In this document: positions 41,951 to 49,438 of the stretch, one piece after another
Numbering within the stretch: the stretch's first letter is position 1
How the letters are laid out: each line of letters begins with the position of its first letter
Source: Hyphomicrobiales bacterium
GTDB lineage: Bacteria; Pseudomonadota; Alphaproteobacteria; Rhizobiales; Devosiaceae
DNA: 64,000 nucleotides
Assembly (NCBI GenBank): GCA_900470445.1
Contig: UCAU01000006.1
Coordinates: 217,224-281,223 of the forward strand
Reading direction: 5' to 3'
Program-made: the position numbers and the translations under genes
The notes under the pieces: model-generated
What the model was told of the DNA's origin: nothing
Seen by the model: only the letters and a program-made list of their open reading frames with translations
The model's database searches: none

Positions 41951-42547
41951 CTAGAACTTGCCGATCTCGCTGCGAACCGTCTGAATGAACCCGGTGAGTT
42001 GCTCGGGCGTACAATTGTTCATGTCGTAGAGCGCCAGATATTTCGGCGGCATTCGCCCCCGGAAGGTGGCCCAACCCCAGCGGCGGGCGATGCGGCGCGG
42101 CGGATCGCCCATAAGCATGGTGCGCCAGCGATTGCCGCCATAGGTGGTGATAAAGACCGCCTTCTTGATGTTTGTCAGGTTCGGAACCAGCCGCCCCCGA
42201 TCCCCGCCACCCTCCATCACAAAGGACACGCCCGGCAGGAATATGCGGTCGAAATATCCTTTTAAAATAGCTGGATAGCCGTAATTCCATACAGGGTGCA
42301 CGAAGACGATGGCTTCTGCCGCCCGCAGCCGATCGACATAGGGCTTGATTGCCGGCGTCAGATTGCCGGGCACCTCATGGTAATTGAGGCGTTCCTCCCG
42401 GCTCAGCACGGCGTCAAACTGCTCGTCATAAAGATTGAGGGCATCGACCTCATGTCCATTGTCGATCAGTTCGCCTACCACAGCATCGAACAGAGCCCGG
42501 TTGTAGCTCGTTTCCACCGGGTGAGCGTGAACCACATGAACGCGCAT
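41951..42547 (-). CDS. NAD(P)H-dependent oxidoreductase, flavodoxin-like fold
   Basis: A 198-aa protein of the NQO/MdaB flavodoxin-fold group: MRVHVVHAHPVETSYNRALF binds the FMN/FAD phosphate, and IVFVHPVWNYGYPAILKGYFDR is the conserved second flavin loop. Members reduce quinones or other two-electron acceptors with NAD(P)H. It is the last gene of the six-gene minus-strand operon, overlapping the FAD oxidase stop (TGATG). That context suggests it provides a reductive step or recycles electrons for the pathway, which is inference. Confidence 0.85.
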   Translation of the reverse strand: MRVHVVHAHPVETSYNRALFDAVVGELIDNGHEVDALNLYDEQFDAVLSREERLNYHEVPGNLTPAIKPYVDRLRAAEAIVFVHPVWNYGYPAILKGYFDRIFLPGVSFVMEGGGDRGRLVPNLTNIKKAVFITTYGGNRWRTMLMGDPPRRIARRWGWATFRGRMPPKYLALYDMNNCTPEQLTGFIQTVRSEIGKF

Positions 42548-43947
42548 CAGGCGGCATTCACTGGATTGAGGCCGTCGAACAGCCAGACGCGGCCGGCATT
42601 GAAGTCGAAATTTGGATCGTCCCAGGCGATCATCTTACCGGGATTGAGCATGCCCTTGGGGTCGGCTTCGCGCTTGAAATCGAGCTGTTTCTGGTCGGTC
42701 CGCTTCATGCCGCCTTCCTCAAGTGTGTAGCGATGCGGATTAAACACGGTGCAGCCGTTTTCCTCATGGATGCGGATGATCTCGTTGAGCCGTTCTTCGG
42801 TGGTGTAGCGCACCAGCGGCAGCCCGCCATACATGACCACACCGTCCTGCCGGCCGACCTCGATATGCATGGGCAGCTCGTCGCCAAGAATCGAGATGAT
42901 CTTTTCGACATGAGCGACGGTCGGGTAGCGCGTCTGCAGATAGGTGATGGTCGGATCGACCTTGAGCGCCCGCAACGTCGTGTGGTTCCAGGCAAGCTCA
43001 TAGACGGGCGGCAGGCGCTTGAGCTCTTCGGCACTGGCCTCGTCCGAGCGATAGAGCATTTCGCCCTTGTGATGGGCGACGAACAGCGTCATCGCGTCCA
43101 CGGCCACCGGCGCCACCATCAGCAGCACGACGGACTGGCCATCGCGGATATAGGGCTTGTGCCGGTTGAAATAGTCCTGCGGGATCGGAGCCGCGCAGGG
43201 CGCCACTTCCTTGACCAGCAAGCCATCCTGCAGCGCGACCGCGCCGCCAAAGCGGCAGGCCTCAATGAAGTCGTCGAAGCCGACGATCATATCGACCCAG
43301 TCATGCGCCTGCGTCAGGGGCATTTCCGCCTCAACGATAATGCCATTGGTGCCATAGGCATGGGCGACCTTGAGGATGTCCTCGCCCACCAGATCCAGCT
43401 CGCGCGGGTTTTCTTCGCAGGTGATGACCTTCACCCCCAGAATGCTGCCGATATTGCGCAGACCACCCCAACGGATCGAGCCGACGCCGCCCGACCCGCC
43501 GGCAATAAAGCCGCCGATGCTGGCCATGCGATAGGTCGAGGGATGAAAGCGTAACTCGCCGTTTACGGCTTCCCGCGTCTGGTGATCCATCTGTTCGAGC
43601 ACCGCACCGGCCTGGGCGCGCACACGGTCCGGTTTGATCTCCAGAACCTTGTCCATATTCATCAGATTGAGCATGGCGCCGCCCGAAAGCGGCATGGCCT
43701 GGCCGTAATTGCCAGTGCCGGCCCCGCGCGGGGTGATGGCAATGCCATGGCGGAACGCGGCGGCGAGGACGGTTTTCACCTCCGCATTGGAGCGCGGCGA
43801 CACCACGATTTCCGCGGTCACATGATCGAGCTTGGCCTTCAGTATCGGGGAATACCAATAATGGTCGCGGCTGCGTTGCTGGACGATGCGGGGATGATCC
43901 TCGACGGGAATATCGCCAAGGTCAGCGCGGAAATCTGAAATGCTCAT
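42547..43947 (-). CDS. FAD-binding oxidoreductase (GlcD/VAO type)
   Basis: A 466-aa flavoprotein with an N-terminal PCMH FAD-binding domain: VSPRSNAEVKTVLAAAF, RGAGTGNYGQAMPLSGG near residue 75 and GGFIAGGSGGVGSIRWGG near 145. A C-terminal FAD-linked oxidase domain follows. The closest general class is glycolate oxidase GlcD/D-lactate dehydrogenase, but it lacks the cysteine-rich GlcF partner. It could dehydrogenate a hydroxy acid or an amine. It overlaps the amidohydrolase stop by ATGA, so all catabolic genes here are translated as a coupled series. Confidence 0.85.
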   Translation of the reverse strand: MSISDFRADLGDIPVEDHPRIVQQRSRDHYWYSPILKAKLDHVTAEIVVSPRSNAEVKTVLAAAFRHGIAITPRGAGTGNYGQAMPLSGGAMLNLMNMDKVLEIKPDRVRAQAGAVLEQMDHQTREAVNGELRFHPSTYRMASIGGFIAGGSGGVGSIRWGGLRNIGSILGVKVITCEENPRELDLVGEDILKVAHAYGTNGIIVEAEMPLTQAHDWVDMIVGFDDFIEACRFGGAVALQDGLLVKEVAPCAAPIPQDYFNRHKPYIRDGQSVVLLMVAPVAVDAMTLFVAHHKGEMLYRSDEASAEELKRLPPVYELAWNHTTLRALKVDPTITYLQTRYPTVAHVEKIISILGDELPMHIEVGRQDGVVMYGGLPLVRYTTEERLNEIIRIHEENGCTVFNPHRYTLEEGGMKRTDQKQLDFKREADPKGMLNPGKMIAWDDPNFDFNAGRVWLFDGLNPVNAA

Positions 43948-45263
43948 GCGTGTCGTCCCATCAGGTCGTCGAGTTCGCGATAATCGGGCAGGGTGGTGTC
44001 GATAGCAGCGCCATTGCGCAGCACGACGCGATCGGTTTGCGGCCGGGACATCAGCTCGTTCCAGGTGCGGGCGCGGAACAGCACCAGCTCGGCAGGAAGC
44101 CCCGCGCTGATCGTGCCGGAATAATCGAAGCCGCCAATGGCCGCCGGCTCGGCGCTGACCGAACGCGCCCAGGTAAAGGCATCGGCCTGCGGATGGTCGA
44201 AATGCAAAATCCGCGCGCCTTCGCGCAGGACTTCAAAGCCATCGAGATCGCCATAGGCATAGAACGGGTCGCGCGTATTGTCCGACGCGATGGCAACCGG
44301 CACCCCGGCCGCCTTGAGTTCGTTGAGCAGGGTAACGCCCCGCCAGCGCGGCGTCCGCACCCCGCCAACATTGCGCCGATCCTGCAGATACATATTGCAG
44401 ATCGGCAGCGAGACGACGGCAATGCCCGCCTGCGCGACGCGCTCGATTGTCGCCATCGCCGTCGCTTCGGGCTGAATGGCGATGGCGCAGCAATGCCCGG
44501 CCGTCACCTTGCCGGCAAAACCGGTCTCGATCACCGCATCGGCCAGGCTCTGCAAAGCGTCGGCCGCCGGGTCTCCCGTTTCGTCGATATGCAGGTCCAC
44601 ATCGAGACCGAAATCGCCGGCCACTTCGAGCAGCGCCCGCATGATGGCGGGATTGTCCGGGTGAACACCCGTGGAGCCGCCCAGCAGCCCCTTAGCAGCT
44701 TTGGTGCGCGTGGCGACGGCGCGAAGCGCCGCCGGGTCAAGAATGGTGTCGGGGCCCATAAGACCTGCCGCCTGAAGCTCGATCCGACCCACCCAACGCT
44801 CGCGCACGGCCTCGAACACGTCCCAGGAAATCTCATGCTGCGGCGGCGCCGTATCAAGATGCGTCCGCACGGCGGCCGTGCCATGCGCCCAGGCGCAGCG
44901 TAGGGCAAAATCCATGCGCCGCTCGACATCGGCCGCCGCCCAATTGGCGGTGCGGTCCTCGCCGACGGCCATCAGGGCACCAAGCCAGGTGCCATCCGGG
45001 TTTTCCTTGCGCGGCCAGATATGGCCCTTGTCGAGATGGGTATGCAGATCGACAAAGGCTGGCAGCACAATGCCATGGTCGAGATCGATACGATCCGGCC
45101 CAAGCGGGGCGCTGCCAGCGGCACCAAGGCTGATGACCTTGCCGTCGGCAATCTCGATATCGACCAGAATAAGCGCACCCGAGGCGGGCTCGCCCATCAC
45201 TGCTGCCGGCACATTTGCATTGGCCAGCACATAGCGGCCGGTCGAAGGAATAGTGATCGTCAA
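43944..45263 (-). CDS. cytosine deaminase-like amidohydrolase
   Basis: A 439-aa metal-dependent hydrolase of the CodA group. Metal ligands are H74/H76 in DLHTHLDKGHIWP, a His in VDLHIDETGDP, a His in VTAGHCCAIA and an Asp in IASDNTRDPFYAYGD. The segment LPICNMYLQDR corresponds to the CodA substrate-loop LPxxNxxLQxR. The family includes enzymes for cytosine, isoguanine and creatinine, so the substrate is likely a cyclic amidine or ureide, not proven. The start is TTG 45263 with AAGG upstream. It sits between the transporter and the oxidase in the operon. Confidence 0.85.
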   Translation of the reverse strand: MTITIPSTGRYVLANANVPAAVMGEPASGALILVDIEIADGKVISLGAAGSAPLGPDRIDLDHGIVLPAFVDLHTHLDKGHIWPRKENPDGTWLGALMAVGEDRTANWAAADVERRMDFALRCAWAHGTAAVRTHLDTAPPQHEISWDVFEAVRERWVGRIELQAAGLMGPDTILDPAALRAVATRTKAAKGLLGGSTGVHPDNPAIMRALLEVAGDFGLDVDLHIDETGDPAADALQSLADAVIETGFAGKVTAGHCCAIAIQPEATAMATIERVAQAGIAVVSLPICNMYLQDRRNVGGVRTPRWRGVTLLNELKAAGVPVAIASDNTRDPFYAYGDLDGFEVLREGARILHFDHPQADAFTWARSVSAEPAAIGGFDYSGTISAGLPAELVLFRARTWNELMSRPQTDRVVLRNGAAIDTTLPDYRELDDLMGRHA

Positions 45264-45266
45264 ACC

Positions 45267-46130
45267 TTAATTCTCCCGCTTGATGGCGCTCTCATGCCAG
45301 CGATGGAGCGTCAGCCAGGAGATAAACGAAGTTAGCCCGAAGATGGCAATGCCGGTGCCGCACAGCATCAGCAAGGCAACGAAGAGGCGGGGCAGATTGA
45401 GCCGGTACTGGCTTTCCAGCAGCCGGAATGCGAGGCCCGCGCCCTGGCCAGCGGAACCGGCAGCGAACTCCGCGACGACCGCGGCAATCAGCGACAGCCC
45501 GCCACCAATCCGCAACCCGGCCATGAAATAGGGCATCGAGGTCGGGATCTTGAGGTAGAGCAGCGTCTGCCAAGGCGAGGCGCCGTAAAGCTCGAACAGG
45601 TTCAAGAGGTTATGATCGACGCTCTTGAGGCCCTGCGCCATGTTGGAGAGGATGGGGAAGAAGGCCACGAGAAAGGCGCAGATGAGCAAAGCCGTCTGCG
45701 TGTCGGGCGCATAGATCAGCAGCAGCGGCGCAATGGCGATCATCGGCGTCACCTGCAGGATCACCGCGAAGGGAAACAGCGCCAGTTCGAGAACGCGCGA
45801 CTGCACCAGCAGGATCGCCAGCCCCACGCCGCCGATCAGGGCCAGAGCCAGGGCCATGAAGGTGATTTTGAGGGTGACGAGCAGGGCAGGCCATAGCGTG
45901 GCGGAATCGGTGAACAGCGCGATGACGACATCGACCGGGCCAGGCAGGATGTATTTGGGAATGCCGTTGATCGTGACCAGCAAATGCCAGGCCGTGATCG
46001 CCAGTACCAGTGCGATAAGGGGGACTGCGATACGCAACACCTTTTCATTGGTGGTGGCGCGGGGGATCAGGGCCGCCACGGCGGCATCGGTGCCCGCCTC
46101 GGCTGCAGCGATAGTCTTGATCTGGTTCAT
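45267..46130 (-). CDS. ABC transporter permease, SsuC/TauC/ThiX type
   Basis: A 287-aa permease with six membrane helices and the BPD_transp_1 EAA-type loop near residues 185-205 (LFELYGASPWQTLLYLKIP). The N-terminus has a leader of 30 polar residues before the first helix (IALVLAITAWHLLVTI). The set belongs to the nitrate/taurine/hydroxymethylpyrimidine import group. It overlaps the ATPase gene (ATGA). Membership in a pyrimidine-like uptake system is inferred from the binding protein and the adjacent CodA-like enzyme. Confidence 0.92.
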   Translation of the reverse strand: MNQIKTIAAAEAGTDAAVAALIPRATTNEKVLRIAVPLIALVLAITAWHLLVTINGIPKYILPGPVDVVIALFTDSATLWPALLVTLKITFMALALALIGGVGLAILLVQSRVLELALFPFAVILQVTPMIAIAPLLLIYAPDTQTALLICAFLVAFFPILSNMAQGLKSVDHNLLNLFELYGASPWQTLLYLKIPTSMPYFMAGLRIGGGLSLIAAVVAEFAAGSAGQGAGLAFRLLESQYRLNLPRLFVALLMLCGTGIAIFGLTSFISWLTLHRWHESAIKREN

Positions 46131-46984
46131 GACGTGATCTCCGCAGCATGGATGGCGCGTTGCAGCGCATCCGAAACGGTCTGGCAGGTCTGCCGATAGC
46201 CCTCGGAATTGCGATAATCATGGTCGCGAACAGCGGGCTGGGCGATCTGCATATCGGTGAACACCTGGCCCGGCCGCGCCCGCATCACCACGATACGGCT
46301 CGAGAGATAAGCAGACTCGTAGACCGAGTGGGTGACGAAAATCACCGTCATGCCGAACTGCTGCCACAGCCGCAGCACGTCGTCATTGAGCTTCTGGCGC
46401 GTGATTTCGTCGAGCGCCGCAAAGGGCTCATCCATCAGCAGCAGCTTGGGCCGCGTGACGATGGCACGCGCAATCGAGACGCGCATCCGCATGCCGCCGG
46501 ACAGTTCGCGAGGATAGGACTTGGCGAAATCCGCCAGACCGACACTGGCCAGCCCTTCCATGATCCGCTCGCGCGCATCCGCCTTGGAAACGCCCCTGAG
46601 CTTGAGTGGCAGGTGCACATTGTCGAACACGCTAGCCCACGGCATCAGGGTCGGGTCTTGAAAGACAAACCCCACATCGCCCTCGGGCAGGCCCTTGGTG
46701 TTGATCTTGGACGATGGCCAATCGATGCTGCCCGAACTTGGCGCACCCAGCCCCGCAATGATGCGCAGGGCCGTCGACTTGCCGCAACCGGAGGGGCCGA
46801 GTAGCGAGATGAACTCGCCGGCTTTCACATCCAGCGACATGTCCTTGAGGGCCAGCGTGCCGTTGGAGAACACTTTGGTGACGTTGCGCATCGAGACGAT
46901 GGCACGGGGAGCTTCGACCTCGATGGGACGAGCGGCGACGGCAGCTGATGTATCGGTCAATATCGGAACCCGGATTAGGGTCAA
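46127..46984 (-). CDS. ABC transporter ATP-binding protein, SsuB/TauB type
   Basis: A 285-aa ATPase with Walker A LLGPSGCGKSTALRIIAGL, Q-loop FVFQDPTLMPW, signature LSGGMRMRVSIARAI, Walker B LLLMDEPFAALDE and H-loop FVTHSVYESAYLS. All motifs are intact. The start is uncertain. The TTG at 46984 is the furthest upstream, but no ribosome-binding site is clear, and a downstream TTG or the ATG before RNVTKVFSNGTL could be used. It follows the binding-protein gene after a 41-bp gap holding a hairpin. Confidence 0.93.
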   Translation of the reverse strand: MTLIRVPILTDTSAAVAARPIEVEAPRAIVSMRNVTKVFSNGTLALKDMSLDVKAGEFISLLGPSGCGKSTALRIIAGLGAPSSGSIDWPSSKINTKGLPEGDVGFVFQDPTLMPWASVFDNVHLPLKLRGVSKADARERIMEGLASVGLADFAKSYPRELSGGMRMRVSIARAIVTRPKLLLMDEPFAALDEITRQKLNDDVLRLWQQFGMTVIFVTHSVYESAYLSSRIVVMRARPGQVFTDMQIAQPAVRDHDYRNSEGYRQTCQTVSDALQRAIHAAEITS

Positions 46985-46988
46985 AACA

Positions 46989-47010
46989 GCGCGGACGGGA
47001 TTGCCCGCGC
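46989..47010 (-). terminator. intra-operon hairpin between binding-protein and ATPase genes
   Basis: On the minus strand GCGCGG / CCGCGC form a stem around GCAATCCCGT, followed by TGTTTTG. This resembles the leaky hairpins that protect binding-protein mRNA and lower expression of the downstream transporter genes. Confidence 0.45.
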
Positions 47011-47025
47011 CGATTGATCGCGGTG

Positions 47026-48036
47026 CTATTCGGCCTTGGCCAGTTCCAGACCCACGCCCTTGCAGACAAATGCGGTCGAGAACGACTTGGAGATATCGAT
47101 ACCGGCTTCGTACACGCCGGCCTTGACCATCATGTCATAGAAAGCCTGCCAGCGTTCGGCCGTCATGCAGCCAATGCCCTGGGTCTCGGCTTCGCCTGAT
47201 ACAACCACGCCATATTCCTTGAGCTTGGCAATCGAGAAGGCGATCTGACCATCGGTCATCTCGGGATTGTCCTTCTTGATCAGGTCGTTAGCGGCTGTGT
47301 TGTCACCATAAAGGTAATTGTACCAGCCGATGATCGAGGCATCGACGAACCGCTGCACCAGATCTGGCTTGGTGTCGACGATCTCTTGCCGAGTTTCGAT
47401 GGCGGTGGAGTAGGGGTCGTAGCCATAGTCGGCGAGCAGATAGATCTTGGGCGCCCAGCCGGTCTGGCGCTCGATTTCATAGGGCTCGGAGGTCAAATAG
47501 CCCTGCTGCACGGCCAGCGGATCGGCGATGAAGGGCGCGGGATTGAAAGTATAGGGCTCGTATTTGTCGTCGGAGAATCCCTCCATCGACGACTTCATCC
47601 ACGGCCAGAAGCCGCTGAACAGGCTGTCCTTGCCCAGGATCATCTTGCTGGCGCCGGTCAGGCTCGCGAGATCGGTAAAGGGTGCATCTGGATGCGCCAG
47701 CAGGACCTGCGGGTCCTTCTGGAAAATCGCTGCGACGGTGACGACGGGGATGCCGCGCGATACCGAGTCGATCGTGCCCATGCCGCCCATGTAGAAATCC
47801 AGCTGACCGGCAACCAGGAGCTGACCATTTGGGGCCTGCGGGCCGCCCTGGCGGATGGTCACATCCAGGCCATACTTGGCGTAAGTGCCATCGGCGACGG
47901 CCTGGTAATAGCCGCCATGCTCGGCCTGGGCGAGCCAGTTGGTGCCGAACGTGACCTTGTCCTGGGCCGTGGCGGCGCCCGCCAAGGCACCGAAGATCAG
48001 GACCGAAGATGAGACGAGTTTGGTAATATCGTGCAT
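47026..48036 (-). CDS. ABC transporter substrate-binding protein, NMT1/THI5-like
   Basis: A 336-aa periplasmic protein with a signal peptide (VSSSVLIFGALAGAATA, cleaved before QDKVTF). The NMT1/THI5 fold opens with FGTNWLAQAEHGGYYQAVADG, resembling proteins that bind pyrimidine precursors or related heterocycles. The pocket-lining GQLDFYMGGMGTID segment is near residue 90. The ATG at 48036 has GGGAG 7 bases upstream; 44 upstream codons are not coding. It is the promoter-proximal gene of the minus-strand catabolic operon, as expected for high expression. Confidence 0.9.
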   Translation of the reverse strand: MHDITKLVSSSVLIFGALAGAATAQDKVTFGTNWLAQAEHGGYYQAVADGTYAKYGLDVTIRQGGPQAPNGQLLVAGQLDFYMGGMGTIDSVSRGIPVVTVAAIFQKDPQVLLAHPDAPFTDLASLTGASKMILGKDSLFSGFWPWMKSSMEGFSDDKYEPYTFNPAPFIADPLAVQQGYLTSEPYEIERQTGWAPKIYLLADYGYDPYSTAIETRQEIVDTKPDLVQRFVDASIIGWYNYLYGDNTAANDLIKKDNPEMTDGQIAFSIAKLKEYGVVVSGEAETQGIGCMTAERWQAFYDMMVKAGVYEAGIDISKSFSTAFVCKGVGLELAKAE

Positions 48037-48246
48037 GTTGCGCTCCCCGGCATGGCTATGAGCAGCCACGACCAATTTCTGTGCGACCGCGTCGCTTGCG
48101 CAATTGTTGTCCCGGTCTTGGTCTGTTGTGAAGTCAAAAAATGAGCAGCTGCACAAAATGCCTGCCATGCATGCAAATCGTGCAGTTTGGGCTAGGCAAG
48201 CGGTTTACCGGACGCTAGCATCGCCACCTCAAGGAAGTTTTTAACT
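48037..48246. promoter_or_regulatory. divergent control region of the catabolic island
   Basis: A 210-bp gap between the divergent binding-protein and RidA-family genes. It contains the palindrome TGCATGCA and an outer TGCAC ... GTGCA pair about 25 bp apart around 48150-48185, plausible operators. No regulator gene is adjacent on either side. Promoters for both directions should lie here, but I cannot place them confidently. Confidence 0.45.
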
Positions 48247-48636
48247 ATGGCGACGCCCCTCTCTCCCCACCAGATTCATCCGCCGTTCGCGCCTTATAGC
48301 CACGGCATTGTCGTGCCGCCGGGGCAGCGTCTGGTGTTCTGTTCTGGCCAATTGGGCATTGGGGCAGACAAGATTGTGCCGCCCGACTGCGCAGGCCAAA
48401 CGCGCATCTGTTTTGACAATATCGCCGCCATTCTGGGCGAGGCCGGCATGACGCTCGCCAATATCATCCGCATCAATGCCTATGTGACGGGCAGGGAGCA
48501 CCTGCCGGACTATATGGGCGTGCGCAACGTGCTGTTTGCCGAGCCCTATCCCGCCTCGACTCTCATGATCGTTTCCGGCTTCGCCCGGCCCGAATTTGTG
48601 GTCGAAATAGAAGCCATTGCCGCCGGCCCAGCCTGA
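48247..48636 (+). CDS. RidA-family protein lacking the catalytic Arg
   Basis: A 129-aa YjgF/YER057c/UK114 protein. Archetypal RidA hydrolyses reactive enamine/imine intermediates and needs an Arg in the PARxxxxV motif (Arg105 in E. coli). Here the segment is PYPASTLMIV, with Ser104 in that place, so it belongs to a non-archetypal Rid group and probably acts on a different substrate or as part of a catabolic enzyme set. SGQLGIGADKIVPPD and the final VVEIEAIA are standard. It is divergent from the transporter operon and 10 bp upstream of the creatininase-family gene. Confidence 0.88.
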   Translation: MATPLSPHQIHPPFAPYSHGIVVPPGQRLVFCSGQLGIGADKIVPPDCAGQTRICFDNIAAILGEAGMTLANIIRINAYVTGREHLPDYMGVRNVLFAEPYPASTLMIVSGFARPEFVVEIEAIAAGPA

Positions 48637-48646
48637 GGACCTTTCT

Positions 48647-49438
48647 ATGACCCGCAAAATCTGGTGGACCGACTTTTCCGCGTCCGATTTCAACAATATC
48701 GACCCGGCAAAGACCATTGCCATCCTGCCCATCGCGGCCGTCGAGCAACATGGCCCCCATCTGCCGGTGGGCGTGGACACGATCATCAACCAGTCGATGA
48801 TGGAGCTATTGGCGGCCCGCGCGCCGGCCGAGCTCGATATTCGCATCCTGCCGGTTCAGGCCATCGGCAAATCCAACGAACATATCTGGGCCAAGGGCAC
48901 GATCAGCCACAAGGTAACCAATCTGATCGATGCCTGGACACAGATTGGGCTGGAAGTGGCGCGGGCAGGGGTCCGCAAGATCATTTTCGTCAATTCGCAT
49001 GGCGGCAATGAAGAGATCATGGGCATCGTCGCCCGCGAAATGCGGGTGCAAGCTGGCATGCTGGCGGTCAAAAGCGGCTGGCGCTTCACGCCGGTAGGCC
49101 TATTGAGCGAGCTCGAACGACGCCACGGCATCCATGGCGGGGATGCTGAAACCTCGCTCATTCTGCATTTCAGGCCCGATCTGGTCGATATGAGCCGCGC
49201 CGAGAACTTCGTCTCCATCGCCGCGCGCGACGAAGCCGAATACAAATATCTGCGGCCCACCGGCGCCTTCGGTCACACCTATGCGTGGATCGCCTCGGAC
49301 ATAAATCCGGGCGGCGCGGTTGGCGATGCGTCCATTGCAACGGCAGAGAAGGGCCGCGAGATCGCCGAGCACAACGTCACCGGCATGCTCGAAGTCCTCG
49401 CCGAAATCGAACGCATGCCGCTGCCGGGCAGTCGCTAG
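48647..49438 (+). CDS. creatininase-family amidohydrolase
   Basis: A 263-aa protein of the creatininase/MftE/ArfB superfamily. Metal ligands align as E33, H35 and D44 in AVEQHGPHLPVGVD, a His in NSHGGNEEIM, and Glu in HGGDAETSLILHF. These enzymes open or cleave cyclic amides (creatinine, formamide groups of FAPy compounds). The full ligand set suggests activity. GAGGA lies 8 bases before the ATG. It pairs with the Rid protein and is divergent from the CodA-like amidohydrolase, consistent with stepwise degradation of a cyclic N-compound. Confidence 0.88.
   Translation: MTRKIWWTDFSASDFNNIDPAKTIAILPIAAVEQHGPHLPVGVDTIINQSMMELLAARAPAELDIRILPVQAIGKSNEHIWAKGTISHKVTNLIDAWTQIGLEVARAGVRKIIFVNSHGGNEEIMGIVAREMRVQAGMLAVKSGWRFTPVGLLSELERRHGIHGGDAETSLILHFRPDLVDMSRAENFVSIAARDEAEYKYLRPTGAFGHTYAWIASDINPGGAVGDASIATAEKGREIAEHNVTGMLEVLAEIERMPLPGSR

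Follow-up and report, generated by a model that had tools for sequence, protein, structure and literature searches.

An eight-gene island at positions 41951-49438 of a 64,000-nucleotide stretch of DNA from a Hyphomicrobiales bacterium (hereafter the window) very probably encodes the catabolism of pterins, the folate-derived pteridines, through import, deamination, flavin-dependent oxygenation, cleavage by a creatininase-family hydrolase and clean-up by a Rid protein. The substrate is probably a pterin because the FAD enzyme of the island is, by sequence, orthologous to the folate-titled structure 6v42 and because the deaminase groups with pterin deaminases. Both relationships lead away from the preliminary description of this DNA, in which the compound was either left unnamed or suggested to be pyrimidine-, hydantoin-, isoguanine- or creatinine-like. 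With a pterin as the most likely substrate, the breakdown itself would belong to a kind already known, though sparsely described, and the chemistry that follows deamination would be the interesting part. Although most organisms produce pterins and folates, the open literature that we searched says little about how bacteria recycle their rings. The conserved gene set supplies candidates with which the breakdown of the pterin ring can be tested; it would also set right three misleading annotations, and it suggests that bacteria associated with plants use pterins as a scavenged source of nitrogen.

Organization of the island

All eight open reading frames that the preliminary description assigned to this region are present in the ORF listing on the strands it gave, and each matches its Pfam family above the cut-off (Flavodoxin_2, FAD_binding_4, Amidohydro_3/1, BPD_transp_1, ABC_tran, NMT1, Ribonuc_L-PSP and Creatininase), in keeping with its reading of the island as serving the uptake and breakdown of a cyclic N-compound. 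Six genes lie on the minus strand: a NAD(P)H reductase with a flavodoxin fold and quinone-reductase relatives in the PDB (41951..42547, 198 aa; PF02525, 101 bits), the FAD enzyme (42547..43947, 466 aa), a CodA-like amidohydrolase that is a likely pterin deaminase (43944..45263, 439 aa), the permease (45267..46130; PF00528) and ATPase (46127..46984; PF00005) of an ABC importer, and its NMT1/THI5-type binding protein (47026..48168; PF09084, 72 bits). These genes overlap or are separated by at most 3 bases, except for a gap of 41 bases between the binding protein and the ATPase. On the plus strand follow a Rid-family protein (48247..48636, 129 aa; PF01042) and a creatininase-family hydrolase (48617..49438; PF02633, 215 bits). 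Judging from the sequence, the binding protein likely starts at 48036 rather than 48168, with a signal-peptide-like beginning (MHDITKLVSSS...), and the creatininase-family protein likely starts at 48647 rather than 48617. The ORF starts define a divergent intergenic region of about 210 bases (48037..48246), which returned no Rfam match at E values up to 1. A folate riboswitch was considered and rejected: the single Rfam match (E 0.69, chance level) falls within the deaminase gene and concerns an unrelated family.

In the host genome, of 4.8 Mb, the FAD-enzyme profile has a single match at E values of 1e-80 or below. Elsewhere in this genome (L128, contig C77, 12240-18327), genes for a creatininase-family protein (46% identical to that of the window) and for a distant CodA-family protein occur in the company of FGGY kinase, DeoR and BtpA genes.

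Conservation of the gene set

A scan with the FAD protein yielded 55 loci in near relatives, the nearest match being that of Devosia sp. LC5 (99%). Locus counts used stretches of at least 14 kb (48 of the 55 near loci, 19 of 20 loci in a widened sample, all five named records, and ten of 15 deaminase-centred loci, including L174, which has no FAD gene) and left out matches shorter than half the query, so that disrupted genes, for instance in L060, were not counted. At a distance of no more than 9 kb from the FAD gene, the binding protein, ATPase, permease and reductase were each present in all 48 near loci, the deaminase and the creatininase-family gene in 47 each and the Rid gene in 33; the full set was found in 33, though these loci come mostly from Devosia and the Rhizobium tropici group and are not independent of one another. 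Because the gene set recurs near the FAD gene in these 48 loci, its clustering is not due to chance and the island stands as a genuine, conserved unit, which bears out the co-occurrence in Hyphomicrobiales that the preliminary description had proposed as a check. Devosia loci share the layout of the window. In the R. tropici group the six-gene part is unchanged, the creatininase-family gene is found upstream, in the opposite orientation and beside a LysR gene, and the Rid gene falls inside the locus only in L044 and L050. In Candidatus Devosia symbiotica (L060), several island genes match as short pieces only, and the island appears to be decaying.

Of 398 genomes drawn from across the phylum, 32, the host among them, yielded a FAD-enzyme match that passed the E 1e-80 threshold, and the trait is thus patchy. 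Among the 19 widened loci, we found the deaminase in 17, the binding protein in 16, the permease and the ATPase in 15 each, the creatininase-family and Rid genes in 14 each, a flavodoxin-type reductase in 12 and a VanB-type reductase in two; deaminase, creatininase-family protein and binding protein occurred together in ten. Distant loci keep a core with members lost or swapped, and some FAD loci have no deaminase, creatininase-family, Rid or importer gene within 9 kb. Of 72,556 plasmid records, 140 carried FAD-enzyme matches (E 1e-60 or better), 109 of them from Rhizobium.

The FAD enzyme, deaminase, creatininase-family protein and Rid occur together in all five named records, in which order, transporter and reductase vary. 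On pRL12 of R. johnstonii 3841, a PaoABC molybdenum oxidoreductase adjoins genes for the creatininase-family protein, a LysR regulator, the ABC importer, deaminase, FAD enzyme, reductase and Rid; Comamonadaceae bacterium OTU4NAUVB1 carries TetR, reductase, amidohydrolase, creatininase-family, ABC importer, FAD enzyme and Rid genes; Pantoea sp. SOD02 and Klebsiella pneumoniae p2B17602 share a VanB-type reductase, amidohydrolase, Rid, creatininase-family protein, ABC importer and FAD enzyme; and Ruegeria sp. TM1040 has Rid, creatininase-family, amidohydrolase and FAD-enzyme genes with a TauD dioxygenase and a different transporter. Next to its cluster, the K. pneumoniae record (L118, 4157-7586) also encodes a 2OG-Fe(II) oxygenase, an additional amidohydrolase and a further ABC binding protein. 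Two further loci (L094 and L100) encode isochorismatases related to RutB and biuret hydrolase that score far below the cut-offs for those enzymes.

The FAD enzyme is related to a folate-catabolism oxygenase

In a PDB search with the window FAD enzyme, 6v42 was the sole close relative (596 bits, against 50 for the next best), and its entry title reads 'flavin oxygenase ... involved in folate catabolism'. A tree that omitted matches of fewer than 400 columns or with stops nested both proteins in one 31-row clade (support 99/98) and placed the FAD enzymes of Variovorax-like clusters in a separate clade. We regard the window enzyme as the orthologue of 6v42 on these grounds, and by analogy with that title it would oxygenate a folate-derived compound. 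The nearest fetched relatives of 6v42, at 75%, include L108, a locus with the whole gene set.

The deaminase groups with pterin deaminases

The deaminase scores 588.1 bits against NCBIfam PRK07583 (cut-off 403), whose label 'cytosine deaminase' is an automatic annotation. Its best PDB relatives are cytosine deaminases, and it shows weak similarity to N-isopropylammelide hydrolases. The amidohydrolase metal-site residues H74, H76, H225, E228, H257 and D328 are invariant in 18 aligned rows. The Asp-Asp motif of E. coli CodA is incomplete, its second Asp (Asp314) being replaced by Asn329 in a column likewise invariant in the 18 rows.

These features bear on a pyrimidine pathway, in which the CodA-like enzyme would act on cytosine, 5-methylcytosine or a thiamine-derived aminopyrimidine and the FAD enzyme and Rid would perform a Rut-like ring opening. 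The NCBIfam label and the PDB relatives of the deaminase favor such a pathway, as do a weak PDB similarity of the binding protein to THI5 and a RutR-type TetR gene (TetR_C_3) in L161, but the Asn in the CodA motif, the absence of RutA and thiamine-pathway families from the eight proteins and the folate-titled orthologue of the FAD enzyme argue against it, and we consider it quite unlikely. The Rut pathway proper was rejected on gene content, with no RutA model among the NCBIfam matches and the window Rid at 31.7 bits against the RutC cut-off of 169.1, and thiamine (HMP) salvage was rejected on the absence of TenA or any other HMP-pathway enzyme among the eight proteins.

Published work links this branch of amidohydrolases to pterins. 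According to the accessible part of the Variovorax F1 paper (PMC9513972), the pterin deaminase (PDA) of that strain has 399 aa, acts on folate and pteroate and is encoded upstream of an endoribonuclease (Rid) gene, and Arad3529 of A. radiobacter K84 is 37.0% identical to it and 36.0% to a second Variovorax protein. We collected Variovorax-type deaminases, whose Variovorax identity is inferred from sequence, by a profile search of 348 genomes of one family and picked 15 deaminase-centred loci by hand from a longer match list; a pattern search for the start of the Variovorax deaminase matched none of 349 genomes in the second group and one of 200 in the first. One of these deaminases (L167) has 399 aa and begins MKLESLR, where the F1 primer given in that part of the paper encodes MKLEAVR, and another (L165) has a Rid gene directly downstream, as in the F1 strain. 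The genes often lie beside those for a related FAD enzyme, importer, creatininase-family protein and Rid: a FAD-enzyme relative is encoded at 12 of the 15 loci, with importer genes as well at L161, L163 and L167, whereas L165, L168 and L174 have the deaminase and no FAD gene within the stretch covered.

The window deaminase is 33.3-37.8% identical to seven Variovorax-type proteins, compared with the 36-37% reported for Arad3529 in the text available to us, and about 55% identical to the Rhizobium operon copies. An R. rhizogenes genome (G915) contains five matches to the CodA-family profile, of which the operon deaminase reaches 35.5-39.4% to the same seven proteins and the four paralogues reach 23.4-32.0%. 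Because only the operon copy attains the published identities, Arad3529 is, by elimination, most likely the K84 copy of the operon gene; the elimination would be weaker if K84, like R. lusitanum, had a second deaminase, and further strains may likewise carry two candidates. In R. lusitanum, the second deaminase is 32.3-35.7% identical to the seven proteins. It lies at L130, 2554-13777, is 54% identical to the R. rhizogenes operon copy and has as neighbors a reductase, an Amidohydro_2 protein, an NMT1 protein and three molybdenum hydroxylase parts; this is perhaps another pterin cluster. On the atrazine plasmid pADP-1 (NC_004956.1; L115, 8941-10272), a deaminase relative adjoins atzD and has genes for a BMP-type ABC importer and a LysR regulator as neighbors. 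Taken by its sequence relationships, the window deaminase likely belongs with the pterin and folate deaminases and is a predicted pterin deaminase.

The pterin activity of these relatives could also be incidental, with the island serving another pteridine-like or fused-ring substrate, such as a riboflavin breakdown product or isoxanthopterin. Devosia riboflavina (L017) carries the gene set, and molybdenum hydroxylase genes lie near the cluster in R. johnstonii and near the second R. lusitanum deaminase, which would suit such a substrate; we nevertheless hold it to be very improbable, as families of riboflavin degradation are absent from the eight proteins and both the 6v42 title and the pterin deaminases name folate or pterins.

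The creatininase-family protein, the Rid protein and the reductase

The creatininase-family protein scores 78.7 bits against the model of true creatininase (cut-off 235), and the H-Y-E metal motif of that enzyme, in which the Glu is Glu122, reads H-G-G in nine aligned rows. Degradation of a creatinine-, hydantoin- or s-triazine-type compound, to which the Creatininase family, the weak similarity of the deaminase to N-isopropylammelide hydrolases and the deaminase relative beside atzD on pADP-1 might point, was rejected on these scores and residues and has next to no chance of being correct, the pADP-1 stretch moreover listing no FAD-enzyme, creatininase-family or Rid gene. The preliminary judgment that the gene content is unlike the creatinine, Rut and thiamine-salvage pathways thus holds.

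The Rid protein has Ser at the position of the Arg in RidA-type PH0854, as the preliminary description anticipated in calling it devoid of the catalytic Arg. In all eight aligned rows, P-x-S-T replaces this residue, the substrate-binding Arg105 of RidA, and two Glu residues are kept. Rid forms of two lengths occur, one in alpha- and the other in beta- and gammaproteobacterial clusters, both with P-x-S-T. An Arg-less Rid would fit a substrate without an alpha-carboxylate.

The reductase is flavodoxin-type in most loci and VanB-type in Pantoea and Klebsiella; reducing power thus seems to be needed and its source to be changeable.

A proposed route for pterin breakdown

We propose that a pterin, for instance pterin-6-carboxylate from oxidised folate, enters through the ABC importer and that the CodA-like amidohydrolase, judging by its relatives, would release ammonia from this pterin to give the corresponding lumazine. 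Oxygenation of the deaminase product would then fall to the 6v42-type FAD enzyme, also cast as a flavin oxygenase by its relatives, with the flavodoxin-fold reductase as its putative partner. The creatininase-family hydrolase may next open the ring by cutting an amide bond in the oxidised pyrazine ring, and the Arg-less Rid may hydrolyse the resulting reactive enamine or imine; this order of steps is likewise proposed. Members of the creatininase family are described, in the part of PMC9478397 available to us, as formamidases in riboflavin synthesis, and since an oxidised, opened lumazine would contain a like amide, this role suggests the cut that we assign to the family here.

We give about even odds to the broader proposal that the gene set constitutes a complete and widespread proteobacterial route of pterin ring opening, comprising uptake by an importer, deamination by a pterin deaminase, oxygenation by a flavin enzyme whose reductase can be exchanged, cleavage of the oxidised pyrazine ring by a creatininase-family enzyme and the action of a Rid protein that an Arg-to-Ser change adapts to a cyclic aminopyrimidine-type intermediate. 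If this proposal is true, the creatininase-family and Rid activities are new, and the labels cytosine deaminase, creatininase and RidA are wrong for these proteins. A search of open-licence literature found no description of the whole operon in the accessible text, with the Variovorax F1 paper (PMC9513972) the sole directly relevant one, and found the steps after pterin deamination in no paper.

Comparison with known systems

In outline, the island resembles the Rut pyrimidine pathway, which also combines a flavin oxygenase, a reductase, a hydrolase and a Rid protein, but the oxygenases are of unrelated types and the island Rid falls far below the RutC cut-off. The ArfB and BrbF formamidases (PMC9478397, accessible part) share the creatininase family and the proposed amide cut on an aminopyrimidine, whereas the island protein scores 26 bits against the ArfB cut-off of 180, and BrbF is likened here by its description there. 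The FAD enzyme is an orthologue of the flavin oxygenase of 6v42 and 6v43, at 50-56% identity in structure alignments among the best 50 matches, and the folate label in this comparison comes from the PDB entry title. Arad3529 and the Variovorax F1 PDA, as described in the accessible part of PMC9513972, appear to belong to the same amidohydrolase branch as the window deaminase and, like it, have a Rid gene nearby.
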